Virus record (IMG/VR): IMGVR_UViG_3300031987_000005 | Coordinates: 1 to 35,758 of that record | Length of the DNA: 35,758 nucleotides | Source of the DNA: a virus | Reading direction: 5' to 3' (one strand) | Shown here: piece after piece, positions 9,246 to 35,758 of the stretch | Layout: each line of letters opens with the position of its first letter | Numbering within the stretch: the stretch's first letter is position 1 | Notes under the pieces: model-generated | The model's input: only the letters and a program-made list of their open reading frames with translations | Databases searched by the model: none | Told to the model about the DNA's origin: nothing | Position numbers and translations under genes: made by a program

Positions 9246-9757
9246 AGTTAGGCCGTTGCCCCATCTGTCACAGCCACATCCAGCTGGAAGCCCTGATTCA
9301 AGACGACGCCGGCAGCGAACTGTTGGGCCTGCTGTCCACCCTGGGTCGCCCACTGGCCCGGCCGCTGGTGCAGTACCTGGGCCTGTTTCGCCCGGCCAAG
9401 TCAGACCTGAGCAACGCCCGCGCCCTGCGGCTGGCCCAGGAAACCCTGGAACTGGCCGACCGGGACAGCCTGGTGGTTGGCCTGCAGGACACCGTGCGCA
9501 GCCTGCACGAGAAGCGCCACCGGGGCGAAACCAAACCGCTCAAGAACCACAACTACCTCAAGCAGGTGCTGGCTACCGTAGCGCCAGAGGCCAAGAAACC
9601 GGCCGCCGAAGCCGACAGCGACCGGCCGAGATTCGTGGAGAAAAAGCAGGGCGTGGAAGAAACCCAGGAAGAGTCCCGCCGCAAGTGGGAAGAGCAGATG
9701 CGCAAGCTGGGCGTGGACCCCTCAAAGTTCGACACCAACCGAAAAACCGGAGGCTGA
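9242..9757 (+). CDS. Early-region protein with N-terminal CxxC
   Basis: This is a 171-residue protein. It starts with RCPICHSHIQLEALIQDD, a half zinc-ribbon-like CPIC-x-H unit followed by a helical domain (about 20-110) with LGLFRPAKSDLSNARALRLA. The last 60 residues are highly charged and likely disordered. Comparable proteins lie between GemA and Mor in Pseudomonas-type Mu-like phages. Function unknown. Confidence 0.75.
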   Translation: MKLGRCPICHSHIQLEALIQDDAGSELLGLLSTLGRPLARPLVQYLGLFRPAKSDLSNARALRLAQETLELADRDSLVVGLQDTVRSLHEKRHRGETKPLKNHNYLKQVLATVAPEAKKPAAEADSDRPRFVEKKQGVEETQEESRRKWEEQMRKLGVDPSKFDTNRKTGG

Positions 9758-9758
9758 T

Positions 9759-10154
9759 ATGAGCGCGTGGGATATCGAGCACCTACCAATGTCGCTGAAG
9801 GAAATGAGCGACATCATCGGCCTGGAAGCCACCCGCAAGCTGGTTGCCGCCTATGGTGGCACCCGCCTGCGCGTGCCCGTGAAAATGCCCGAGGCTCACC
9901 CCCTAGCCGAGCTGCTGGGGCTTGAGGCAGCCCGGGCGCTGTCCTGCCACTACGGCCTGGAAGAGTTCGATGTGCCTATGGCCAGCTCTGCGATCAAGCG
10001 CGCCCGCAACCGCCGCATGCAGGCCGAGCACCGCGAGGGCGTATCAGCCCGCCGCCTGGCCCGCCGGTACCAGCTGACCGAGCGCCGCGTGTGGGAGATA
10101 CTGGGAGAGGATCTGCCGAGCGATAATCAGGCGGAGTTGTTCGGTGAGCTATAA
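9759..10154 (+). CDS. mor: Mor/C-family transcription activator
   Basis: This 131-residue protein has the family's two-part structure. The N-terminal dimerisation region (about 8-75) includes EMSDIIGLEATRKLVAAYGG and the parallel LAELLGLEAARALSCHYG. The C-terminal HTH (about 92-115) is EGVSARRLARRYQLTERRVW. Mor activates the Mu middle promoter and C the late promoters. Only one such protein is visible here, at the end of the early operon and about 230 bp before the first promoter-like block, so it probably serves both blocks. That last point is inference. Confidence 0.92.
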   Translation: MSAWDIEHLPMSLKEMSDIIGLEATRKLVAAYGGTRLRVPVKMPEAHPLAELLGLEAARALSCHYGLEEFDVPMASSAIKRARNRRMQAEHREGVSARRLARRYQLTERRVWEILGEDLPSDNQAELFGEL

Positions 10155-10350
10155 CCTGGCAAAACTTCCCGCTGATGAGCGGGCCGATATCGAGCGAGAT
10201 AAGCAGCGCTGGCACCAGGCGTTAAGCATCACCCTAAGCCGCCGCCCTGGCCAGATCAGGCAATGGCTAGAAACCATCAACGATGACGAGGAAAAAGAGG
10301 ATTGGCGCCAAAGACTAAACGCACTGCGCCATAAAAGCCCCTTCAGGTAA
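10144..10350 (+). CDS. Small protein overlapping the mor end
   Basis: This 68-residue ORF has a GTG start inside the 3' end of mor (11-nt overlap) and GGCGGAG upstream as a ribosome site. It is charged and helical, with the stretch RRPGQIRQWLETINDDEEKE. No family is recognised. It is the last gene before the 120-bp regulatory gap. Confidence 0.65.
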   Translation: MSYNLAKLPADERADIERDKQRWHQALSITLSRRPGQIRQWLETINDDEEKEDWRQRLNALRHKSPFR

Positions 10351-10446
10351 GGGCGGGATTGCCATGATGCCGCCCCGCAGTTATTCTTTGTCCACTTTCT
10401 ACCCCTGAAAAAACTACCCCTGAACTTCCCCCTGAGTCCTGATATA
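10351..10446 (+). promoter_or_regulatory. Putative Mor-activated promoter block 1
   Basis: A hairpin (GGGCGG 10351-10356 with CCGCCC 10370-10375) is followed by TTATTCTTTGTCC (10381-10393). Then come two direct repeats, CTACCCCTGAA (10399-10409 and 10414-10424), and a possible -10 GATATA at 10441-10446, 25 bp before the endolysin ATG. No good -35 is seen, as expected of an activator-dependent promoter. The same string of elements occurs before the protease gene (17547-17645), which argues for a shared activator. Confidence 0.55.
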
Positions 10447-10470
10447 GCCCCCCGCCGCTAACCTGCGGCC

Positions 10471-10962
10471 ATGAAACGACAGAAGCTATCACCCAACTTT
10501 TACCTGGACGAGTTCACCCGCTCGCAGACCGCCGCGCGCTTTGAGATCAGCATGGCGGTGCCCGAGGGTAGCTCGGTTTTCTCCAACCTCCACCACCTGG
10601 CCCGCCATGGCTTGCAGCCGGCGCGCGATGCCCTGGGGCCGATCTTTATCAGCTCGGGGTACCGGCCGCCCGCACTGAACAGCCGTATCGGCGGCAGCGC
10701 TACCAGCGCCCACGTTCCCGGCCTTGCGGCGGATATCTCCGTGAGCGGCCACACGCCCCACCAGGTGGCCCGCTGGTACGAAGACAGCGCAGTGCCCTTT
10801 GACCAGGTTATTCACGAGTTCGGCCAATGGGTGCATGTGGGCATGGCCGCCCCTGGCGAAGAGCCCCGGCGCCAGCTGCTGACCGCCGTGAAGGTCAGCG
10901 GCCGCACGGTTTACCTGGAAGGCATCCACACAATGGAAGAAGCGCTGCGGAGGGTCGGCTAA
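10471..10962 (+). CDS. M15-type endolysin (D-Ala-D-Ala carboxypeptidase fold)
   Basis: This 163-residue protein has the peptidase M15 zinc signature: SSGYRPPALN at 61-70, H81 and D88 in SAHVPGLAADIS, and H122 in QWVHVGM. These match the HxxxxxxD...H metal ligands of the family. It probably cleaves peptidoglycan cross-links for lysis. There is no signal peptide, so it relies on the holin encoded next. It is the first gene after promoter block 1, and its stop overlaps the holin start (TAATG). Confidence 0.92.
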   Translation: MKRQKLSPNFYLDEFTRSQTAARFEISMAVPEGSSVFSNLHHLARHGLQPARDALGPIFISSGYRPPALNSRIGGSATSAHVPGLAADISVSGHTPHQVARWYEDSAVPFDQVIHEFGQWVHVGMAAPGEEPRRQLLTAVKVSGRTVYLEGIHTMEEALRRVG

Positions 10963-11540
10963 TGGGCTGGAGCTGGGACGGCGTTAAAGAGGTTATCGGC
11001 GAGGCGGCCCCGCTTCTGGGCAGCGCCCTGGGGCCTGCCGGCGGTGCTGCGGGCACCTTGATTGCCAGCGTGCTGGGTGTGGAGGACAGCCCCGAGGCGG
11101 TCCATAAAGCCATCCAGGCAGACCCGCAGGCCCTGGCCAAACTGCAGGCCGCTGAGCGGGAGCATGAGCGCGAACTTCGCCGCATGGTGATTGAGGCTGA
11201 GACCACGCGGCTGACCGAGATCAACAAAACCATGCGGGCCGAGGCCAGCGCCCAAGACGGCTTCGTGCGCCGGTGGCGCCCCACCTTCGGTTACATGGTG
11301 GCGATCACCTGGCTGATCCAGTCGCTGGCGATTGCCTGGGCCATGGTCAGCAAGCCCAGCAACGCCGCTGATTTGATCAATGCCGTGACGGCGCTCACGC
11401 CTATGTGGGGCATCGCCCTGTCCATCCTGGGCATCAATATCAGTGCCCGCAGCCGCGACAAGCGCACCAGTGCGGGTCAGGACGGCCGGGGGCTGCTCGA
11501 CAAACTGGCCGAGGGGCTGGGAGGCAAAGCCCGTGGATGA
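10962..11540 (+). CDS. 3-TM holin
   Basis: This 192-residue protein was started at the ATG overlapping the endolysin stop. It resembles the three-TM gene-transfer-agent holin family. It has a weakly hydrophobic N-terminal segment (about 15-43, GEAAPLLGSALGPAGGAAGT), a charged coiled-coil middle (about 60-100) and two strong membrane helices near 112-135 (after VRRWRPTFGYM) and 145-165. It is expected to permeabilise the inner membrane and release the endolysin. No separate Rz/Rz1 spanin pair is seen. Confidence 0.82.
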   Translation: MGWSWDGVKEVIGEAAPLLGSALGPAGGAAGTLIASVLGVEDSPEAVHKAIQADPQALAKLQAAEREHERELRRMVIEAETTRLTEINKTMRAEASAQDGFVRRWRPTFGYMVAITWLIQSLAIAWAMVSKPSNAADLINAVTALTPMWGIALSILGINISARSRDKRTSAGQDGRGLLDKLAEGLGGKARG

Positions 11541-11754
11541 GTGGGTATACGAAGGCGCACAGGAACTAACCGAGCGCCTGCGCCAGGCCGGGATCGACGA
11601 GGCCCGCCGCGCCCCAACTGAGCAGCCGCTGGAGGTGAACGGCCAGCGGCTTTGCAAGGAATGCGAGGAGCCTTTAAGCCCGGCCCGGCTAAACGCCAAC
11701 CCCAGCGCTGTGCGCTGCGTTGAGTGCCAGACAGATCACGACCGGAGGAAGTAA
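11533..11754 (+). CDS. TraR/DksA-type zinc-finger protein
   Basis: This 73-residue protein starts with GTG, overlapping the holin end by 8 nt. It has a C4 zinc finger (C41, C44, C62, C65; CKECEEPLSPARLNANPSAV then RCVEC) and an acidic N-terminal helix. The size equals that of plasmid TraR, a short DksA homologue that binds the RNA polymerase secondary channel. It occupies the same map position as Mu gp24. A role in tuning host transcription is inferred. Confidence 0.88.
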   Translation: MDEWVYEGAQELTERLRQAGIDEARRAPTEQPLEVNGQRLCKECEEPLSPARLNANPSAVRCVECQTDHDRRK

Positions 11755-12140
11755 TGGATTTGGCGAGCGTGGATTACGGGGCTGCCCGGTTCTGGATGGA
11801 CTTTCTGCAGGTCGCGGGGCTTATCGGCCTGGGCGTTTACCAGCACATGACCAGCAAATCCAAGGCCAACGCCAGCGCCATCAACACCGTGCGTGAAGAT
11901 ATGGATGAACAGCACCGACACCTGGAAGAGCGCGTGGCCCGGTCAGAGCGCCGCCAGGATGTATTCGAGAGCAAGCTGGATGGAGCCCCCACACACCAGG
12001 ATTTATCCCGGGTTTACGGGCGGCTTAACGATGTAGCGGAAGATCTCTCGGGGGTGTCCGGGCAAATGCGGGCGCTCTCGCACCAGTTATCCATGGTCAA
12101 TAACTACCTGCTCAACAACAAGGGAGGCCAAGGCCAGTGA
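11754..12140 (+). CDS. DUF2730 protein (Mu gp25-like)
   Basis: This is a 128-residue protein whose ATG overlaps the previous stop. One membrane helix (about 12-30, ARFWMDFLQVAGLIGLGVYQ) is followed by a long coiled coil (about 45-120). That is the DUF2730 architecture found at this position in Mu-like phages. The topology resembles an inner-membrane spanin subunit, but no lipoprotein partner is visible. Confidence 0.8.
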   Translation: MDLASVDYGAARFWMDFLQVAGLIGLGVYQHMTSKSKANASAINTVREDMDEQHRHLEERVARSERRQDVFESKLDGAPTHQDLSRVYGRLNDVAEDLSGVSGQMRALSHQLSMVNNYLLNNKGGQGQ

Positions 12141-12436
12141 GCTATCAGGACTTTCAAACCAAGGGCCGCCGTCTGGGAATCCTGCGCATTCTCTCGCGCC
12201 GGAATCAGTTCACCTCGAATGAGTACAGCCTGAACGACGAGCTGGCCGGCAACTACGGCCATCACGTCAGCAAGGACCAGCTGCACACAGACCTGGCCTG
12301 GCTGGAAGAACAGGGCCTGCTAATTCTGCAGCAGCCCCGCGCCGGTTGGATTGCGACACTGACCAGCCGTGGCGAGGATGCCGCCGAAGGCCTGGCCAAT
12401 GTGCCAGGCGTTGCGCGCCCCCGGCCGGGAGCGTAA
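12137..12436 (+). CDS. Mu gp26-like winged-HTH protein
   Basis: This 99-residue protein starts at a GTG overlapping the previous gene. It resembles the VpaChn25_0724/gp26 family: a helical region with SLNDELAGNYGHHVSKDQLH, then TDLAWLEEQGLLIL and a beta-wing ending in ATLTSRGEDAAEG. The layout is that of a winged helix, and the function is undefined. It lies directly before the terminase genes, as in Mu. Confidence 0.82.
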   Translation: MSYQDFQTKGRRLGILRILSRRNQFTSNEYSLNDELAGNYGHHVSKDQLHTDLAWLEEQGLLILQQPRAGWIATLTSRGEDAAEGLANVPGVARPRPGA

Positions 12437-12439
12437 GCC

Positions 12440-12988
12440 ATGCCGCCGCGTTCAAAGGTTTTCGACCTTCCGCAAGAGCTGCGGGAGGAGTTGAACCAGC
12501 GCCTGGTCAGCTCCGGCTTCCAGGATTACGAGGGGCTGACCGACTGGCTGGAGGAGCGAGGCTTCAAGGTGTCGCGGTCATCGGTCCATCGTTATGGCCA
12601 GGATCTCCAGGAAGAATTTGAGGAGGCGATGGGTGACGTTCGGAAGACCACCGAGCTGGCCCGCGCCATGGCCACGGACCAGGAAGACCAAAGCGGCCAC
12701 CTGATTGATGCTACGGCCCGAATTGTCCAGGACCAGCTGCTGCGCATTGCCATTGCCATGCGCAAGGCAGAAGACGATCCCGCCAAGGCTGCCAAGCAAC
12801 TGGGCAGCGTGACCCGCGCCCTGGCCGAGATTGGCCGGGTGTCTCTGGGGCAGAAGAAGTGGGCAGCCGAGGTGCGTAAAGAGGTCGTCCAGGAAGCTGC
12901 AGAAGCGGCGGAAACCGTCGCCAGGCAGCAGGGCCTAACCTCCGAAAACGTCAGCCAGATCAAAAACCAGATTCTCGGGATCGCCTGA
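12440..12988 (+). CDS. Small terminase subunit (Mu gp27, DUF3486)
   Basis: This 182-residue protein has the DUF3486 pattern. The N-terminal part resembles an HTH (LPQELREELNQRL and SSGFQDYEGLTDWLEERGFK, then SSVHRYGQDLQ). A long helical C-terminus (about 60-180) follows. In Mu-like phages this protein precedes the large terminase and is taken to be the DNA-recognition subunit of the packaging motor. Its stop overlaps the gp28 start (TGATG). Confidence 0.88.
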   Translation: MPPRSKVFDLPQELREELNQRLVSSGFQDYEGLTDWLEERGFKVSRSSVHRYGQDLQEEFEEAMGDVRKTTELARAMATDQEDQSGHLIDATARIVQDQLLRIAIAMRKAEDDPAKAAKQLGSVTRALAEIGRVSLGQKKWAAEVRKEVVQEAAEAAETVARQQGLTSENVSQIKNQILGIA

Positions 12989-14556
12989 TGAGCATGCAGC
13001 AGAGCGCCATCTCCCAGGCCGTGCAAGTCGGCCTGGAAGACCTGCAGAAGTTCAACTCTGACGAGATCTTGCTGGGGTACCAGAAGCGCTGGATTGCCGA
13101 TGACTCCCCGCTGAAGATCGCCGAGAAATCCCGCCGAACCGGCCTCACATGGGCGGAAGCTGCGGATGCTGCCCTGTGCGCCAGCATGGCCAGAACCGAA
13201 GGCGGCACCAACCATTTCTATGTGGGCTCCAGCAAGGAAATGGCCCGGGAGTTCATCCAGGCCGTGGCTATGTGGGCCAAGGCCTTTGATCGAGCCGCCG
13301 GTGAGATCCAAAGCGAAGTCCTGGAGGATGACGACAAAGACATTCTCACCTTCGTGGTGTACTTCGCCTCTGGCTTCAAAGTGCAGGCGCTCAGCTCCAA
13401 CCCCAGCAACCTGCGGGGCATGCAGGGCAACGTCACCATTGATGAAGCCGCCTTTCACGATCGCCTGGCCGAAGTGCTGAAAGCCGCTCTGGCACTGACC
13501 ATGTGGGGTGCGAAGGTGCGCCTGATCAGCACCCACAACGGCACCGACAACCTGTTTAACGAGCTGATCCAGGACAGCCGTGCGGATAAAAAGCGCTACA
13601 GCGTGCACCGCATCACCCTGGATGACGCCTGTGAAGAGGGCCTGTACCAGCGTATTTGCCAGATCAAGGGTGACGAGTGGAACCAGGAGAAAGAGGACCA
13701 GTGGAAAGCGGACCTGCTGCGGGACACCGCCACCCGGGACGATGCCCTGGAAGAATACTACTGTGTGCCCAAATCCGGCGGCGGTGCCTACCTCTCGCGG
13801 GCCATGATTGAGGCCTGCATGGAAGAGGCCCCGGTGGTGCGCTTTGAGGGCACCACCGAGTTCAACGCCTGGCCGGAGCACCTGCGCCAGGCTGAGGTCC
13901 GCGACTGGTGCGAGACCCATCTGCTGCCACTGCTCAAAGAGCTGGACCCGGAAGAGCGCCACGCCTTCGGGGAAGACTTCGGCCGCAGCGGAGACCTGAC
14001 CGTGATCGCCCCTATGGCGATCGGCCAGCAGCTGCAGCGCCGGGTGCCGTTCCTGGTTGAGCTGCGCAATATGCCGTTCAAACAGCAAGAGCAGATCCTG
14101 TTCTACATCGTGGACCGCCTGCCACGGCTGCAATTCGGCGCGCTGGATGCCCGGGGTAACGGGCAGTACCTGGCTGAGCAGGCCCAGGAAGAGTATGGGT
14201 CTGAGCGCGTGGAAGCGGTCATGCTGTCGCAGTCCTGGTACCTGGACTCCATGCCCCGCTTCAAGGCCGCCTTCGAAGACGGCGGCATTGTGGTGCCGAA
14301 AGATGCCGATGTGCTGGACGACCTCCGGGCCCTGCAGGTGATCAAGGGCATACCCAAGCTGCCGGACGCCAAAACCGGCGCGGACAAAAAACGCCATGGC
14401 GACGCGGCCATAGCACTGGCCCTGGCGTACTACGCCAGCCACATGCAGGCCGAGCTGGAGTATGGCTACGAAGCCATCCGCCGGGGCCCCGAACACAAAC
14501 ACCACCGCCCGGTGCGCGCCACCGCCGGATTCCGTAACCGAGGAGGATTGCTGTAA
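12988..14556 (+). CDS. Large terminase (Mu gp28)
   Basis: This is a 522-residue packaging ATPase-nuclease. The Walker A-like loop is KSRRTGLT (47-54), the variant with arginines seen in Mu gp28. Walker B is VTIDEAAF (149-156), and motif III lies near RLISTHNGTDN. The nuclease half (about 320-480) includes GEDFGRSGDLTVIAP and LDARGNGQYLAEQAQ, with the acidic residues expected of an RNase H-like nuclease. It drives headful packaging starting from the phage end with host DNA attached, as known for Mu. Neighbouring starts and stops overlap. Confidence 0.94.
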   Translation: MSMQQSAISQAVQVGLEDLQKFNSDEILLGYQKRWIADDSPLKIAEKSRRTGLTWAEAADAALCASMARTEGGTNHFYVGSSKEMAREFIQAVAMWAKAFDRAAGEIQSEVLEDDDKDILTFVVYFASGFKVQALSSNPSNLRGMQGNVTIDEAAFHDRLAEVLKAALALTMWGAKVRLISTHNGTDNLFNELIQDSRADKKRYSVHRITLDDACEEGLYQRICQIKGDEWNQEKEDQWKADLLRDTATRDDALEEYYCVPKSGGGAYLSRAMIEACMEEAPVVRFEGTTEFNAWPEHLRQAEVRDWCETHLLPLLKELDPEERHAFGEDFGRSGDLTVIAPMAIGQQLQRRVPFLVELRNMPFKQQEQILFYIVDRLPRLQFGALDARGNGQYLAEQAQEEYGSERVEAVMLSQSWYLDSMPRFKAAFEDGGIVVPKDADVLDDLRALQVIKGIPKLPDAKTGADKKRHGDAAIALALAYYASHMQAELEYGYEAIRRGPEHKHHRPVRATAGFRNRGGLL

Positions 14557-16121
14557 TGGCGGATTCACCCATTGTCGACGCAAGCGGCCGCCCGATCCGC
14601 AAGGCCGAGCTGAAACAAGAGCTGGCCGCCCCATCACTGACCGGCGTGCGCCAGACCTGGCACAACAGCATTGCCGATAACCTGACCCCCGATCGCCTGG
14701 GCATGATCCTGCGGGCCGCCGCCAATAACGATGGCCACGACTACCTGACCCTGGCCGAGGAGATGGAGGAGCGCGAGCCCCATTACGCCTCCGTGCTGGG
14801 CACCCGCAAGCGGGCCGTGAGTGGCTTGGATATTCAGGTAGAGGCGGCATCTGACGACGCGGCCGATGTGCGCCTGGCCGATGCCGTGCGCGACCTGGTG
14901 CGCGATGCCGCCTTTGGCACCCTGGTGGAAGACCTGCTGGACGCCCTGGGCAAGGGCTATTCGGTGGCTGAGATCATGTGGGCTGCCCGTGGCGGCGAAT
15001 GGTGGCCCCGGGAATACGTGTGGCGTGACCCCCGGTTTTTCCGGTTTGACCAGGCCACCGGTCGCCAGCTGCGCCTGATCGATCAGCACAACGTGGCCGA
15101 GGGCATCCCCCTGGCGCCGTTCAAGTTCATCGTTCACAAGCCGCGCCTCAAGTCCGGCCTACCGATGCGCGGCGGCCTGGCGCGTTTGGTGGCTGTGTCG
15201 TACATGGCCAAGAGCTACACCCTGACCGACTGGCTGGCCTTTGCCGAAGTGTTCGGCATGCCGCTACGCCTGGGCCGCTACAACAGCAACGCCAAGCAGG
15301 ACGAAGTGGATATTCTGCGCGCGGCCGTGGCTAACCTGGGCTCAGATGCTGCAGCCATCCTGCCCGAGGGCATGAAAATCGAGTTCCAGGAAATTGCCAA
15401 CACCCAGGGCGGCGCGGATCTGTTCCAGGGCCTGGCCGAATGGGTCGACAAGCAAACCAGTAAAGCGGTGCTGGGTCAGACCATGACCGCTGATGACGGC
15501 TCCAGTCAGTCCCAGGCGACCGTGCACAACGATGTGCGCGAAGACATCCAGCGAGCAGACGCCAAGCACCTGGACCACACGCTGGCGCGTGACCTGGTCA
15601 AGCCGTTCATTGATCTGAATTACGGCGTACAGCGCCGCTACCCGACCATTCGCATCCACATTCCCCAGCCGGAAAACATCCAGCAACTGGTTTCAGCGGT
15701 GAAGGATCTGGTACCGCTGGGCCTGCGTGTGGAAAGCTCGGTGATCTCCGACAAGCTGGGTTTGCCAGACCCGGACAAGGGCGCCCACATTCTGAGCCCA
15801 CCCGCGCAGAATCCATACCCTGAAACTGCCCCTAACCGGGCTTTAAATGCCGCTCAAAACCGGGAATCTGTCGTGGATGAACAGGAGCCGGACTTTGACG
15901 AAATCGCCGAAGCCGAAGACGAGTGGCAGCCCCAGCTGACCCCGCTGCTGGACCCGATCGAACGCCTGGCAAAACAGGTGGCCGATGAAGGCGGTGATGA
16001 AAACGACTTTCTGAACCGCCTGGGTGAGGCCCTGGAAGAGATGGACGAAACCGAACTGGTGCGACGCCTGGCGGCCAGCGCCTTCAAAGCCCGGGGCCTG
16101 GGCGATGCGAGGGACGACTAA
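14556..16121 (+). CDS. Portal protein (Mu gp29, DUF935)
   Basis: This 521-residue protein matches the Mu-type portal family: LTPDRLGMILRAAANNDGHD, EREPHYASVLGTRKRAVSGL, a central FKFIVHKPRLKSGLPMRGGL, and the conserved SKAVLGQTMTADDGSSQSQA stretch near residues 304-323. Twelve copies should form the DNA channel at the capsid vertex. The last 90 residues are acidic. It overlaps gp28 and gp30 by 1 nt each (TAATG). Confidence 0.94.
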   Translation: MADSPIVDASGRPIRKAELKQELAAPSLTGVRQTWHNSIADNLTPDRLGMILRAAANNDGHDYLTLAEEMEEREPHYASVLGTRKRAVSGLDIQVEAASDDAADVRLADAVRDLVRDAAFGTLVEDLLDALGKGYSVAEIMWAARGGEWWPREYVWRDPRFFRFDQATGRQLRLIDQHNVAEGIPLAPFKFIVHKPRLKSGLPMRGGLARLVAVSYMAKSYTLTDWLAFAEVFGMPLRLGRYNSNAKQDEVDILRAAVANLGSDAAAILPEGMKIEFQEIANTQGGADLFQGLAEWVDKQTSKAVLGQTMTADDGSSQSQATVHNDVREDIQRADAKHLDHTLARDLVKPFIDLNYGVQRRYPTIRIHIPQPENIQQLVSAVKDLVPLGLRVESSVISDKLGLPDPDKGAHILSPPAQNPYPETAPNRALNAAQNRESVVDEQEPDFDEIAEAEDEWQPQLTPLLDPIERLAKQVADEGGDENDFLNRLGEALEEMDETELVRRLAASAFKARGLGDARDD

Positions 16122-17371
16122 TGGCCAACTTCAGCGCAGGCCCGGTACCCCGTGACGCCCTGGACTACTTCCGCGACAAGGATCTGCGGGTAGGCTTCGA
16201 TTACCGGGACGTATGGGGCCAGGAACACGCCCACGCTTTTACCGTGGCCAAGGCCATGAAGCTGGACATCCTGGACGACATCCGCGCCGGGCTGGATGAA
16301 GCTCTGGCCGAAGGTAAAACCTTCCGGGACTTTGCTGCCGAGGTGAAGCCCCAGCTGCAGAAAAAGGGCTGGTGGGGCGTAAAGGAACAGATTGACCCGG
16401 AGACCGGCGAGCGTGAGGAGGTTCAGCTGGGCTCACCCCGCCGCCTGAAAACCATTTACCAGTCCAACCTGCGCAGCGCCCGGGCCGCTGGCCAATGGCA
16501 GCGGGCGCAGCGTACCAAGGAAACCCTGCCATTCCTGCTGTATGAGCTGGGGCCCAGTGAGAACCACCGGGATGAGCACGTGAAGTGGGCGGGCACCCTG
16601 CTGCCGGTGGATCACCCCTGGTGGCGGGACCACATGCCACCCAACGGGTACGGCTGCAAGTGTCGGGCGCGTCAGGTCTCGCGCACTGAGGCCGAGCGCA
16701 TGGAGCGTGAAGGCATACAGAACCCCATGGCAGAACTGGAGATCAACCCGGAGACGGGGCTGCCCACCGGCCGCAGGCAACGCCAGGTGATGCCAGTGCG
16801 CCGGGAGCCGCCGCCCACCGAGACGGTCAGTTACACCAACCGCCGCACCGGCGAGATCACCCAGGTGGACAAGGGGTTGCACCCGGCCTGGTCGTCCAAT
16901 CCCGGGCAGGACCGTGTGCGGGTGTTGCGCGGCCAGCTGGCCGACAAGGCCGACACGGTGGATCAGCGCCTGGCGCGTGCCACCGTGCGGGATGTCATGA
17001 CCTCGCCGATCTTGGACGAGTGGGCGGCGAAGCCGGCGGGTGAACTGCCGGCGGGTGTGATTGGCCGCAGGGCCCAGCAGGCCCTGGGCGCGAAAAGCCA
17101 GGTGGTGCGGCTGACACCAGCCGCCGCCCGTGGTGGCCGCTCCGTGGCCGTGGGAGACTACCGGGCGATGCCGGAGATCCTGAGTGCAGGCGAGGCCATC
17201 CGGCAAGGCGATCGCTCCCTGGTTGTGCTGCACCAGCGCGGTAACCAGTGGTGGGCCGCAACGGTCCGGGCTGATGACGAGGCTGAAAAGCTGGCCCTGG
17301 AAGTCCTGGAGCCGGTCAGTGACGAGCAGCTGCAACAGATCCGAAACCGAGGCGAAGCGATCCGCGATTAA
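16121..17371 (+). CDS. Head morphogenesis protein (Mu F/gp30) with C-terminal PBECR-like domain
   Basis: This is a 416-residue protein. Residues about 1-195 carry the Mu F-like minor head domain, ending in the diagnostic DEHVKWAGTLLPVDHPWWRD and PPNGYGCKCRA. The C-terminal part (about 300-416), with VVRLTPAAA, an RAMPEILSAGEAIRQGDRSL stretch and WWAATVRADDEAEKLALEVL, resembles the polyvalent nuclease-like (PBECR/barnase-EndoU-type) domains often fused to Mu F. I infer that from pattern only. The protein is needed for head assembly and may be injected. Confidence 0.9.
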   Translation: MANFSAGPVPRDALDYFRDKDLRVGFDYRDVWGQEHAHAFTVAKAMKLDILDDIRAGLDEALAEGKTFRDFAAEVKPQLQKKGWWGVKEQIDPETGEREEVQLGSPRRLKTIYQSNLRSARAAGQWQRAQRTKETLPFLLYELGPSENHRDEHVKWAGTLLPVDHPWWRDHMPPNGYGCKCRARQVSRTEAERMEREGIQNPMAELEINPETGLPTGRRQRQVMPVRREPPPTETVSYTNRRTGEITQVDKGLHPAWSSNPGQDRVRVLRGQLADKADTVDQRLARATVRDVMTSPILDEWAAKPAGELPAGVIGRRAQQALGAKSQVVRLTPAAARGGRSVAVGDYRAMPEILSAGEAIRQGDRSLVVLHQRGNQWWAATVRADDEAEKLALEVLEPVSDEQLQQIRNRGEAIRD

Positions 17372-17407
17372 CGCCTGAAACCCGCCCAAAATAAAAACGC
17401 CCTCAGA

Positions 17408-17439
17408 AGCCCTAGAAGCCCCTTAAAGGGCTTGGGGCT
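17408..17439. repeat. Long imperfect hairpin after gp30
   Basis: Nested arms AGCCC/GGGCT (408-412 with 435-439 within the 17.4 kb line) and AAGCCC/GGGCTT (17416-17421 with 17428-17433) fold into one hairpin with a 6-nt loop. No T-run follows. It may stabilise the 3' end of the upstream mRNA or act with the weak terminator at 17547. The 281-bp gap 17372-17652 holds no supported gene. Confidence 0.4.
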
Positions 17440-17546
17440 ACCATGGCAGGGGCAGAACCCCAAAAAACGTTTTTAAATGGGTGTTAAATGCCTTTACGGG
17501 CGATTGCCAACCATGGGCGCGTCCGATAATCTGCCTTTGCCAATGA

Positions 17547-17572
17547 CCGCTCCCGAAGCGGCCCTTCTTTTT
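17547..17572 (+). terminator. Weak terminator-like hairpin
   Basis: CCGCT (17547-17551) and AGCGG (17557-17561) form a 5-bp stem followed by CCCTTCTTTTT. It lies just before promoter block 2, so it could insulate the two transcription units. The stem is short, so termination may be partial. Confidence 0.35.
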
Positions 17573-17645
17573 GTGGCACTCTGCCACCCCGAAAACCACC
17601 CCTGAACTCCCTCATGACCACGCAACCGGCGCCCCGCCGATAGTG
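17565..17645 (+). promoter_or_regulatory. Putative Mor-activated promoter block 2
   Basis: TTCTTTTTGTGGCAC (17565 onward) is followed by CCACCCCGAA (17584-17593) and CCACCCCTGAACTCCC (17596-17611), and then by a possible -10 GATAGT (17639-17644) before the protease ATG at 17653. The order, wording and distance to the start codon parallel the block before the endolysin (10381-10446). A shared activator, most simply the Mor-family protein, is inferred. Confidence 0.55.
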
Positions 17646-17652
17646 TGGCCCC

Positions 17653-18726
17653 ATGACTAAGACACTTGTACTTCACACCGGCCACTCCATGGCCGCCGCC
17701 ATCGCCTCCAGCCTCGCATCGGCCGCGAGCGTTGACCTGGACCTGGCCCTGAACACAGAGCCAGCCCCGGGCGAACGCCTGGCGCTGAACGTTGAGCTGC
17801 CCCCTGGCGAGGTGCCGGAGTGGGTGGAGCTGCTACCCGCTGGGGAGGTGCTGACCGGCCGCGATGGCCGGATCTGGCGCAACCCCAACCCCCAGGCCGT
17901 GGTCGATCAGTTCCGCATGCGCGGCATGGATCTGGTTATTGACTGGGAGCACTCCAGCGAGCACCGCGCCCCGAAAGGTGAGTCTGCCCCGGCCGCCGCC
18001 TGGGTGAAAGAGATGGAGGTACGCGAGGGCTCTGTGCGGGGCCGCGTTGAGTGGACCTCCAAGGCTGCCGAGCAGCTGAAAGCGAAAGAATACCGCTACC
18101 TCTCCCCCGTTTTCCTGTTTACCCGTGATGAGCGCCAGATTGTGCGGCTGACCAGCGCGGGCCTGACCAACCAACCCAACCTGGCGCTAAAAGCGCTGAA
18201 CCAGCAAACCCACCAGGAGGAATTCCCCGTGTGGAAAGAACTGCTCAAGCGGCTGGGTCTGCCTGAAGACGCAACAGAGCAGCAGGCATTGACTGCTCTG
18301 AACCGGATTCAGGATGACCTGGACACCGCCAAAAACCGTGAGGCGACCCCCAGCCTCGACAAGTACGTGCCCCGTGCCGACTTCGACCAGGCCCAGACTC
18401 GCGCTGCCAACGCGGAGCAGAAGCTGGCCGACATCGAAGAGAAGCGCCAGACCGACGCGATCGACACCGCCATTAACCAGGCAGTGGACGACGGCAAGAT
18501 CGCGCCGGCCACCGTGGAGTACCACAAGGCCCAGTGCCGCACCGAGGGTGGACTGAAGCGCTTCCAGGACTTTGTGGCCAGCGCCCCGGCGATCACTGGG
18601 GATTCCGGGCTGGATGGTCGCGATGTACCCGGCGACGCCAAGGCCCTTAACGCAGAGACCCGCGAGATTGCCGGCATGTTTGGCAACTCTGAAGAGGATC
18701 TCAAAACCTACGGAGGGCTGGCGTAA
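17653..18726 (+). CDS. I: Prohead protease (Mu gpI) with scaffold region
   Basis: This 357-residue protein has the Mu-like protease domain in its first 180 residues. It includes LLPAGEVLTGRDGRIWRNPN, VIDWEHSSEH (H100 as the likely catalytic histidine) and YLSPVF (S151 as the likely nucleophile), with DERQIVRLTSAGLTNQPNLA closing the domain. The C-terminal part (about 193-357) is a coiled-coil scaffold. An internal in-frame start at 18229 can make that part separately, as with Mu I and Z. It processes the scaffold during prohead maturation. Confidence 0.93.
   Translation: MTKTLVLHTGHSMAAAIASSLASAASVDLDLALNTEPAPGERLALNVELPPGEVPEWVELLPAGEVLTGRDGRIWRNPNPQAVVDQFRMRGMDLVIDWEHSSEHRAPKGESAPAAAWVKEMEVREGSVRGRVEWTSKAAEQLKAKEYRYLSPVFLFTRDERQIVRLTSAGLTNQPNLALKALNQQTHQEEFPVWKELLKRLGLPEDATEQQALTALNRIQDDLDTAKNREATPSLDKYVPRADFDQAQTRAANAEQKLADIEEKRQTDAIDTAINQAVDDGKIAPATVEYHKAQCRTEGGLKRFQDFVASAPAITGDSGLDGRDVPGDAKALNAETREIAGMFGNSEEDLKTYGGLA
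18229..18726 (+). CDS. Z: Nested capsid scaffold (Mu gpZ-like)
   Basis: An in-frame GTG at codon 193 of the protease gene is preceded 8 bp upstream by a perfect AGGAGG (18215-18220). It would give a 165-residue protein starting VWKELLKRLGLPEDATEQQA with a helical, charged coiled-coil middle. In Mu the scaffold Z is likewise made from an internal start in the protease gene. The strong ribosome site inside coding sequence is the main evidence. Confidence 0.8.
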   Translation: MWKELLKRLGLPEDATEQQALTALNRIQDDLDTAKNREATPSLDKYVPRADFDQAQTRAANAEQKLADIEEKRQTDAIDTAINQAVDDGKIAPATVEYHKAQCRTEGGLKRFQDFVASAPAITGDSGLDGRDVPGDAKALNAETREIAGMFGNSEEDLKTYGGLA

Positions 18727-19127
18727 TGGCACTCACCCAAGACCGTATGACCCCGAACCGTGACGGCGAGCTGATCCCGTTCGCCGTTGCCGCCGGCGCG
18801 GAAATCTTCATGGGCGCCCAGGTAGCCGTGAATGCTAACGGCATGCTGGTACCGGGCTCCGAAGCCACCGACCTGACCTACATCGGCCGTGCCGAGGAAC
18901 ACGTGGATAACTCCGCCGGCGCTGATGGTGACGCCTTTGTGCGCGTGCGCCGTGGCCAGGCGTTCCTCTGGAAGAATTCGGCCGCTGACCCCGTGGGTCA
19001 GGATCTGGTCGGTAAACCCTGTTTCATTCTGGACGACGAGACCGTCGCCGGCACCGATGCCACTGGGACTCGCTCCCAATCCGGCACCGTGTTGGCTGTC
19101 GAGTCTGCCGGCGTCTGGGTCGAGTAA
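18726..19127 (+). CDS. Head protein, possible decoration/cement protein
   Basis: This 133-residue protein is beta-rich and lies between the scaffold and the major capsid genes, where Mu-like and other phages often encode a small capsid-associated protein. Residues 20-60 (PFAVAAGAEIFMGAQVAVNA) and the C-terminal strands resemble a trimeric decoration-protein beta-barrel. That is inference, because I cannot place it firmly in a named family. Its ATG overlaps the protease stop (TAATG). Confidence 0.75.
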   Translation: MALTQDRMTPNRDGELIPFAVAAGAEIFMGAQVAVNANGMLVPGSEATDLTYIGRAEEHVDNSAGADGDAFVRVRRGQAFLWKNSAADPVGQDLVGKPCFILDDETVAGTDATGTRSQSGTVLAVESAGVWVE

Positions 19128-19139
19128 AGGAGAGTTGCT

Positions 19140-20060
19140 GTGATCGTAAACAAGAACGCACTTGATGGCGTGTTCTTCAACCTGAAGACCACGTTCAACC
19201 GCGCCCTGAAGGCTGCCGAGCCGGAGTGGCAGGAAATCGCCATGAAGGTCCAATCCACCTCCGGTGAAAACCGCTACAAGTGGATGGAGCGTTTCCCGGC
19301 CATGCGCAAGTGGGTCGGTGAAAAGGTGGTCAAGCAGCTGAAGGGCCAGGGCTACACCCTCATCAACGATGACTTTGAGGCCACCATTGAGGTGGACCGC
19401 AACGACATCGAAGACGACTCCCTGGGCATCTATGGCCCCGAGGCCGAGATGGCCGGATACAGCTCGGCACACCTCCCGGATGAGCTGGTGTTTGACCTGG
19501 TAAACGCGGGCTTCACCGAGCTGGCGTATGACGGCCAGCCGTTCTTCGACACCGACCACCCGGTTGGCACCAAAGACGGCGAGACCGTGAGCGTCAGCAA
19601 TAAGGGCACCGCCGCCCTGAGCCACGCCACCCTGGCCGCTGCGCAGGCCTCGTTTGGCGCGGCCCGCACCACTCTGCGGAAGATGAAGGACGACGAAGAG
19701 CGCCCGCTGAACATCAACCCCAGTGTGCTGCTGGTGCCGCCCGCCCTGGAAGATACCGCTCGGGCGCTGATGAGCGTGGACAAGCTCGAAGACGGCAAGC
19801 CCAACCCGTACAAGAGCGCGGCCAAGGTGGTGGTGTCCTCCCGCCTGACGTCCGACACCGCGTGGTTCCTGCTGGATACCACCAAGCCGGTCAAGCCGTT
19901 CATCTACCAGGAGCGCAAAGCGCCCACGTTCGTCAGCCAGACCGACATGAACAGCGACAACGTGTTCCTGAAAAAGAAATACCTGTACGGCGCGGAAGCC
20001 CGTGGCGCCGCTGGCTTCAGCTTCTGGCAGATGGCCTACGGCTCCACCGGCCAGGGCTGA
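19140..20060 (+). CDS. T: Major capsid protein (Mu gpT)
   Basis: This 306-residue protein has the Mu gpT pattern: FFNLKTTFNRALKAAEPEWQ, YKWMERFPAMRKWVGEK, FEATIEVDRNDIEDDSLGIY, and FFDTDHPVGTKDGETVSVSN. It forms the icosahedral shell with an HK97-type fold. It starts at a GTG after AAGGAGAG. A strong terminator follows at 20085-20111, so the head operon probably ends here. Confidence 0.95.
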   Translation: MIVNKNALDGVFFNLKTTFNRALKAAEPEWQEIAMKVQSTSGENRYKWMERFPAMRKWVGEKVVKQLKGQGYTLINDDFEATIEVDRNDIEDDSLGIYGPEAEMAGYSSAHLPDELVFDLVNAGFTELAYDGQPFFDTDHPVGTKDGETVSVSNKGTAALSHATLAAAQASFGAARTTLRKMKDDEERPLNINPSVLLVPPALEDTARALMSVDKLEDGKPNPYKSAAKVVVSSRLTSDTAWFLLDTTKPVKPFIYQERKAPTFVSQTDMNSDNVFLKKKYLYGAEARGAAGFSFWQMAYGSTGQG

Positions 20061-32792: not shown

Positions 32793-33832
32793 TGGTTCAG
32801 CGGTCGTATGCAATCTCCGCCGAAGGTGCGGGCCACTATGAAATGATGGGCTCTATTGAGGCGTCCGGCGCTATGCGCCTCGACTTCCCGGAAGGCGTCC
32901 TGAATATCGGCGGCAACGGCAAGGGCTATGTCCTGGACTCGGTGACCGATTGGGACCCGACCGCTGCAGCCAATCAGGATGGCTCTCTGGATGCGCTGGC
33001 CGTGGGTGACGATGTCTACCTGTATGCAACCCAGAGCGATGATGGCCGCGCCGGGCTGATCGCCAGCACCAACATTACTGTGCCGGGCGGTTACACCAGC
33101 GCCAACTCACGCAAGATCGGCGGCTTTCATTATGGGCGCGTGCGGCCAGTTTCCAGTCGTTACGACACTGCCTATGACCCAGCCGTGCAAATCGTGCCCA
33201 ACTCGGTCTGGGATCTGCAGCACCGCCCTACGTGCGACCCCACCGGGATGGTTGAGGTGGTTCCCGGCAAGCTGTGGGTGGACATCTACCTGAACAGTGA
33301 AGGTAGTGGCACGTGGCCAGAAAACATCCCGGTGAGCCGCTACGGCGTGGCGCCGATTAAGGATGACATCTACTCCCGCTCTGACTTGCACCTGCTGGCC
33401 CGTAACGCCGGCAAACGCCCGCCGACTGTTGAGGAGTTCCTGACGTATTCCGAAGGCGCCCCTCAGGGCAACGACGGCAACAACGACACGGCATGGTCAG
33501 CCACCAGCAACACCGGACCCACCACTGCCGGGGCAGTGGCCAAAGCGGTCTCCATGTTCAACGTGGTGGATGCGGCTGGCAACCTCTGGGACTGGCTGGA
33601 CAATCACCACGACTTGGGCGGCTCCTTTTCCTGGGCCACCTCCGTGGTTAATGTCGGCAAGGATTCTGGTACACCGCGCGGTGCGGTGTACCACGCTGCC
33701 TGGCGTGGGTTCCTCGGTGGCGGCGGCCCGAACGGCGGTGCCCGCTGTGGCTCCCGCTGCCTGTACTCCTACGCGACTCCGTGGAGCGCGGATGGCAGTG
33801 TCGGGCTGCGCTGCGTCTGTGGCGCCCTGTGA
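32792..33832 (+). CDS. DGR target protein with C-terminal lectin-like variable region
   Basis: This is a 346-residue protein. The C-terminal half has the formylglycine-generating-enzyme / C-type-lectin fold used by many DGR targets: KRPPTVEEFLTYSEGAPQGN, NVVDAAGNLWDWLDNHH, then YHAAWRGFLGGGGPNGGARC up to GLRCVC. Residues about 295-344 are the variable region, closely matching the template at 34221-34367. Conserved Cys (319, 323, 341, 343) and Trp (304, 331) frame the changing positions. The N-terminal half is probably a virion-anchoring domain. By place in the tail operon it should be the receptor-binding tip, a role like that of Mtd in BPP-1. Confidence 0.92.
   Translation: MVQRSYAISAEGAGHYEMMGSIEASGAMRLDFPEGVLNIGGNGKGYVLDSVTDWDPTAAANQDGSLDALAVGDDVYLYATQSDDGRAGLIASTNITVPGGYTSANSRKIGGFHYGRVRPVSSRYDTAYDPAVQIVPNSVWDLQHRPTCDPTGMVEVVPGKLWVDIYLNSEGSGTWPENIPVSRYGVAPIKDDIYSRSDLHLLARNAGKRPPTVEEFLTYSEGAPQGNDGNNDTAWSATSNTGPTTAGAVAKAVSMFNVVDAAGNLWDWLDNHHDLGGSFSWATSVVNVGKDSGTPRGAVYHAAWRGFLGGGGPNGGARCGSRCLYSYATPWSADGSVGLRCVCGAL
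33675..33821 (+). repeat. DGR variable region (VR)
   Basis: These 147 bp align without gaps to the template repeat at 34221-34367 (offset 546). They differ at 12 positions, and the template base is A at every one of them. The final 23 bp are adenine-free in the template and identical in both copies, as expected for the homing-initiation part of a VR. Eleven of the 13 adenine-containing codons are changed. Confidence 0.95.
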
Positions 33833-34220: not shown

Positions 34221-34367
34221 CGCGCGGTGCGGTGAACCACGCTGCCTGGCGTGGGTTCATCGGTGGCGGCAACCCGAACGACGGTGACCGCTGTGGCTCC
34301 CGCTGCCTGAACTCCAACGCGAATCCGTGGAACGCGAATGGCAATGTCGGGCTGCGCTGCGTCTGTG
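34221..34367 (+). repeat. DGR template repeat (TR)
   Basis: This is a 147-bp repeat matching the VR, with 22 adenines in the coding-equivalent strand. They are concentrated in nine AAY codons plus CAC, ATC and two GAC. AAY codons cannot become stop codons by adenine mutagenesis. Twelve of the 22 adenines are replaced in the VR (4 pyrimidine-C, 3 T and 5 or more G changes by my alignment). The open frame across it is a by-product, since it mirrors the VR reading frame. Confidence 0.95.
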
Positions 34368-35747: not shown

Positions 35748-35758
35748 ATGGACATCCG
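35748..35758 (+). CDS. Start of an SOS-controlled gene (cut by the window)
   Basis: The ATG has AAGGAGAG 8 bp upstream and sits 20 bp after the LexA box. Only M-D-I and part of a fourth codon are visible, so the product cannot be named. It is probably host DNA beyond the phage right end. Confidence 0.6.

Follow-up and report, generated by a model that had tools for sequence, protein, structure and literature searches.

Two predicted Mor-activated late promoters, probably yielding leaderless endolysin and protease I mRNAs, in a Mu-like phage

Two similar blocks in a 35,758-nucleotide stretch of viral DNA (IMG/VR record IMGVR_UViG_3300031987_000005, analysed at its full length and called the window below) raise the question of which of their parts direct late transcription, which protein acts on them and where the resulting messages begin. 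The original prediction had placed these blocks at 10351–10446 (block A) and 17547–17645 (block B), and both were observed there, each directly 5' of a late gene. The window represents a Mu-like phage whose relatives include Alteromonadaceae phage B23, 79% identical in part of the late region, and a Marinobacter halodurans prophage (L116). The genes are arranged in the order repressor, Ner-like protein, transposase A and B, GemA, Mor-family activator, a small gene, block A, M15 endolysin, holin-like gene, packaging and head genes, block B and protease I, with the coordinates of the relevant features collected in Table 1. The Mor domain (PF08765) of the activator scored above the curated cut-off of 24.9 bits, which places the protein in the Mor/C family, and a profile of its relatives matched the Mu C and Mor structures (1RR7, 9L0X) with E values of 1e-26 or better. 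The small gene showed a weak, sub-threshold match to DUF3283. Near the right end of the phage, in what is likely the tail-fibre region, a 147-bp direct repeat with 92% identity was observed at 33675–33821 and 34221–34367, and the segment 35700–35758, probably host DNA beside the phage end, carries TATACTGTATATTTATACAC, which resembles a LexA box, before an ATG at 35749.

Table 1. Positions in the window of the two blocks' elements and of the neighbouring genes.
Feature	Position	Strand	Basis
Mor-family late transcription activator gene	9759..10154	+	phrog_836, E 1.5e-35; Pfam Mor PF08765, 44.4 bits
Small gene, 68 aa, between mor and block A	10144..10350	+	ORF kept in close relatives
Block A GC hairpin and T-rich stretch, possible terminator of upstream operon	10351..10389	+	fold -15.4 kcal/mol
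Block A distal repeat CTACCCCTGAA	10399..10409	+	exact repeat of 10414-10424; not constant in relatives
Block A predicted Mor site CCTGAACTTCCCCCTG	10419..10434	+	distance to -10/ATG as in relatives
Block A inverted repeat GCCGC-TAACCT-GCGGC around the -10	10454..10469	+	z -2.77; cross-phage covariation
Block A predicted -10, TAACCT, 24 nt 3' of Mor site	10459..10464	+	alignment with block B and relatives
M15 peptidase endolysin, first of lysis operon; predicted transcription start at ATG	10471..10962	+	PF08291, 67 bits
Block B hairpin and TTCTTTTT, probable terminator of upstream operon	17547..17575	+	terminator pattern 17547-17561
Block B distal repeat CCACCCCGAAA	17584..17594	+	variable in relatives
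Block B predicted Mor site CCTGAACTCCCTCATG, 4/6 symmetric pairs	17601..17616	+	comparison with relatives
Block B predicted -10, TAGTGT, 24 nt 3' of Mor site	17641..17646	+	alignment with block A and relatives
Mu-like protease I, first of head operon; predicted transcription start at ATG	17653..18726	+	PF10123, 205 bits

The two blocks and those of the relatives share one architecture, which comprises a 16-bp dyad (6+4+6, consensus CCTGAA-N4-TTCAGG), 24 nt that are poorly conserved among relatives, a TANNNT -10, 6 nt and ATG; the alignment set behind this consensus was selected on the left half, the A and T of the -10, and the ATG. The dyad centre lies 32 nt 5' of the -10 in both blocks, as in the relatives. 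The pattern CYACCCCTGAACT was detected twice in the window against 0.007 occurrences per simulated window, and the same figures were obtained for the composite CCTGAA-N34-TANNNT-N6-ATG. In a motif-free comparison of 27,958 ATG pairs, the pair 10471/17653 ranked first, with 13 of 14 upstream bases matching at equal offset. The right half-site is poor in the window and worst in block A, where the left half is intact, the right half is degenerate and two of the six symmetric pairs are kept. No -35 with suitable spacing was found at the blocks by consensus scan, and the layout of Mor/C-type promoters, with a dyad near -43.5, a -10 and no -35, was observed at both blocks, the dyad being degenerate here. 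The GATA-type -10 elements proposed originally did not hold under this alignment: GATATA at 10441 in block A is not equivalent to the element of block B and aligns neither with it nor with the relatives, and GATAGT in block B lies two bases off the aligned -10. An AT-rich alpha-CTD patch just 5' of the Mor site was also considered and rejected, A+T rising weakly at -64 to -59, and no third late promoter was found in the window even when one mismatch and some spacing tolerance were allowed.

Conservation of the composite was observed in close and distant phages. Five related phage records have exactly two copies apiece, a 5.3-Mb Marinobacter genome has just two, and the same two genes carry the element in every close relative; B23 and the Marinobacter halodurans prophage have the same promoter pair with identical spacing, B23 differing in its perfect dyads and in a 100-aa holin-like protein, not an M15 endolysin, as its first lysis gene. 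Protein homology, which makes no selection for the promoter, yielded 14 loci whose proteins are at least 70% identical, some of them near-identical, and the composite precedes protease I in every one, as it does in the window. Of 21 dereplicated close-group promoters, 13 have a perfect dyad, and 13 came from a scan that demanded one; the first IMG/VR scan demanded a perfect dyad together with the N6-ATG spacing. In a dyad-only IMG/VR scan (ACCCTGAA-N4-TTCAGGGT, with no downstream condition), ORF starts were located 35–39 nt 3' of the dyad in 18 of 56 cases and at exactly 36 nt in nine; several of the downstream genes are Mu-like protease I or cell-wall hydrolases, and Mor is encoded in 12 of the 20 checked records (dyad-only matches or related). 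L037, L047 and L055 from the pattern scan look like chance matches and were discarded. The dyad mostly lies 9–63 nt past the mor stop in distant Mor-encoding records, and the dyads differ between Mor groups yet occupy the same place, such as CCGGAA-N4-TTCC in L019 and GGTGAA-N4-TTCACC in L158. The spacing is also unchanged while the first lysis gene varies among M15 peptidase, holin-like, DUF5675, GH108 and Tlde1-domain proteins. In L045 (1029–1506), a perfect dyad with the same spacing was observed before a MarR-like HTH gene, with a hairpin that includes the AUG; it was rejected as a Mor promoter 5' of a mor gene, as the ORF matches MarR-like HTH families and the Mor profile marginally, and it perhaps represents a further regulatory tier under Mor control.

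From the motif, its geometry and conservation, the missing Shine–Dalgarno (SD) sequences and the presence of Mor, all read from the sequence, we infer Mor binding, the transcription start and leaderless translation, and blocks A and B are thus interpreted, with good confidence, as two Mor-activated late promoters yielding leaderless endolysin and protease I mRNAs. The Mor-family protein would bind the 16-bp dyad in place of a -35 and would recruit host sigma70 RNA polymerase to the TANNNT -10 located 24 nt downstream; transcription would begin at the A of the ATG or 1–2 nt earlier, the ATG being 6 nt past the -10; and both mRNAs would be translated via a 5'-terminal AUG. The predicted joining of promoter and start codon, with an adjoining hairpin, is the more notable feature.

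The inverted repeat of block A stops one base short of the ATG and is matched in stability by 1 of 200 shuffles, and predicted folding around the -10 is clear at endolysin and weak at protease I (z -1.12). Many such promoters have an inverted repeat that lies on either side of the -10 or overlaps it and reaches as far as the ATG; its arms vary between phages yet stay complementary through compensatory changes. Total stem length reached 196, against 135.7 ± 6.3 when right arms were swapped between phages (0 of 2000 trials reached 196), and stems of at least 5 were present in 22 of 45 promoters against 5.7 expected and in 1 of 37 other window genes, effect sizes to be read with care as the promoter list was partly hand-assembled once some members had already shown the pattern. 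In leadered relatives, as at Mu Plys, PI and Pm, the predicted transcription start falls 3' of the left arm, and the right arm coincides with or adjoins the SD or start codon. The read-through RNA of the leadered relatives and Mu gave a mean folding z of -2.7 (n = 15, several of these promoters being close relatives of one another and the Mu -10 positions having been assigned by us), and that of leaderless starts (n = 15) a mean z of -2.1, against +0.1 ± 1.1 at control starts (n = 79). In Mu (L115, AF083977), inverted repeats were observed at Pm, Plys and PI (712–760, 1945–1990 and 9523–9560), each linking promoter sequence (left arm) to the start region of the first gene (right arm), such as CTGCTCA/TGAGCAG at PI. 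The lysis promoters of L041, L094 and L101 and the protease promoters of L114 and L164 are leadered Mor promoters in which the SD (GGAGG) can pair with CCTCC around the -10, a stretch predicted to be absent from RNA initiated at the promoter itself.

It is tentatively proposed, at somewhat short of even confidence, that the repeat at the -10 of the lysis promoter silences read-through RNA from upstream by keeping it untranslated, and so limits endolysin synthesis to its own late promoter. The repeat might instead act on DNA, as a repressor site or an aid to strand opening, a reading that is rather doubtful yet still a serious competitor: in leaderless promoters both arms lie 5' of the predicted start, so the promoter's own RNA contains neither, which this reading accommodates, but arms that differ in sequence yet pair suit a structure better than protein recognition, and the position of the right arm on or next to the start codon or SD, as found in Mu and the leadered relatives, accords with translational control.

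Regarding the predicted leaderless start, a +1 about 7 nt after the -10 makes the first nucleotide the A of the ATG or its neighbour, and transcription is predicted to start within 0–2 nt of the ATG at both endolysin (10471) and protease I (17653), the fixed 6-nt distance behind this having been overlooked in the original prediction. Both genes have an ATG start and no SD sequence, unlike nearly all other window genes; their anti-SD energies are +1.9 for endolysin, the weakest of 44 genes, and -1.4 for protease I, against medians of -7.7 for other genes in the window and -6.9 in B23. Of 45 dereplicated promoters, 38 have a C immediately before the ATG. Leaderless mRNAs are regarded as uncommon in gammaproteobacteria, and no report of leaderless late mRNAs in Mor/C phages was found in the literature searched, which covered few subscription journals. 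Mor-activated promoters with ordinary leadered mRNAs, either starting further upstream or serving genes that begin at later codons, represent an improbable alternative; Mu and the YPCBV-1 group do have SD leaders 3' of comparable sites, but the conserved A and T of the -10 stand at a fixed 24 nt past the dyad and leave 6 nt to the ATG, neither gene has an SD, conservation of endolysin extends to its very first residues in L019 and L011, and the proteases of close relatives have no other Met nearby. Since the YPCBV-1 relatives and Mu are leadered, the leaderless start is not a necessary part of Mor promoters, and the leaderless and leadered labels need two changes on the Mor tree, in which branches are long and the root is uncertain.

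The original prediction had taken two tandem C-rich repeats as the activator motif, preceded by a GC hairpin and TTCTTT. The repeats are present in both blocks, with exactly two occurrences of CTACCCCTGAA in the window, at 10399 and 10414, and with CCACCCCGAAA at 17584 and CCACCCCTGAA at 17596 in block B, and the proximal copy holds the left half of the predicted Mor-site dyad. As a motif of two direct repeats the proposal is highly unlikely, because the distal and proximal copies are spaced 15 nt apart in block A and 12 nt in block B, and a search 5' of the lysis and protease genes of relatives found the proximal repeat and dyad alone constant in position, the distal copy being poorly conserved, shifted or absent; the distal repeat was ruled out as the main site on these grounds. 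A loose search for CCACCCCTGAA with two mismatches gave no clear window-wide enrichment (21 matches against 14.1, with at least as many in 6 of 100 shuffles). CCACCCC-like matches at 201, 1333 and 33836 were rejected as further sites, being without the composite promoter, and the one at 1333–1343, in the repressor/ner intergenic region, is CCACCCCGAAA, like the distal repeat of block B, with no composite promoter present downstream. The GC hairpins and TTCTTT exist as described, but not as an activator site, for they fold no better than shuffles (z -0.87 in block A and -0.44 in block B); the block A hairpin has a weak T-tract and that of block B fits the terminator pattern. Hairpin and TTCTTT are, on weak evidence, probably the terminator of the preceding operon. 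Terminators are also predicted 5' of Pm, Plys and PI in Mu.

That the sites serve the single Mor-family activator of the phage had been predicted and is supported by the Mor homologue, the Mu Pm-like placement and the recurrence at the same two genes in relatives, binding itself being predicted. The least probable reading, in which the element serves some regulator other than Mor, from the phage or its host, or the blocks are only conserved terminators and spacer DNA, draws on the point that a mor gene adjoins in any Mu-like phage, but the placement is that of Mu Pm, dyads located independently of Mor directly follow mor genes in distant phages, and different Mor groups have different dyads in the same place. 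In Mu, a 16-bp Mor-binding element centred at -43.5 takes the place of the -35 (PMC4390567, PMC4287176), and the dyad centre of the window, at about -44, lies within about one base of that in Mu Pm. The Mor/Pm, C/Plys and PI systems of Mu resemble the window in their lysis and protease I operons, their Mor/C activator, a 16-bp dyad in place of the -35, and an inverted repeat linking the promoter and start region. However, Mu uses a Mor-then-C cascade with Pm and four late promoters, whereas the window has Mor alone and two promoters, and Mu has a different dyad sequence and leaders of about 20 nt with an SD, against predicted leaderless starts here. The original expectation of a motif unlike that of Mu was sustained, as the regions upstream of Mu Pm, Plys and PI are without CCTGAA-N4-TTCAGG, specificity varying from one Mor group to another.

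Other known systems show partial likeness. In Pseudomonas phage DMS3 (Casadabanvirus), the element precedes both protease I and an unannotated ORF that opens the lysis operon, each time at the distance from -10 and ATG seen in the window, with the differences that the dyad core is TTGAACCCCTTC, the -10 hexamers are ACCATT and ACGATG, and Mor is only about 33% identical. The protease I start of DMS3 (L113, DQ631426) looks misannotated, the predicted start at L113 position 11538 (record position 19037) lying 126 nt 5' of the annotated one at 19163, and the unannotated ORF heading the lysis operon, of 115 codons, is at record position 10261 (L113 2762). For T4 gene e, the longer transcripts fold over the translation start, and the late-promoter RNA, without the 5' arm, is well translated while the longer early RNA is repressed about 100-fold (PMC3014915). 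The window is predicted to be alike in the fold of the longer RNA over the start region and in an own-promoter RNA without the 5' arm, and differs in that T4 gene e has a gp55 late promoter and a leadered mRNA, against Mor/sigma70 and a predicted leaderless start here. By this analogy we infer that Mor phages may silence read-through RNA as T4 gene e does, and the repeats at Mu Pm, Plys and PI are possibly a silencing device of that type. Leaderless mRNAs of the lambda cI type are similar in the predicted start at the AUG and the lack of an SD; the present case differs in concerning two activator-dependent late operons conserved over many phages.

It is conceivable, and is advanced here with less than even confidence, that Mor/C phages generally, Mu included, have their activator-dependent promoters inside an RNA hairpin, leaving only RNA initiated at the promoter open to translation, and that in one broad branch the promoter has shifted up to the start codon and constitutes with it a movable leaderless cassette placed before unrelated lysis genes. 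If the interpretation is true, a widespread phage group, including the much-used DMS3, makes key late proteins from leaderless mRNAs; the exact transcription and translation starts, corrected gene starts and a missed DMS3 ORF would be revealed; the composite would be a very specific marker for Mor-controlled operons; and the hairpin would represent a T4-lysozyme-like safety catch on endolysin genes, apparently in Mu itself.
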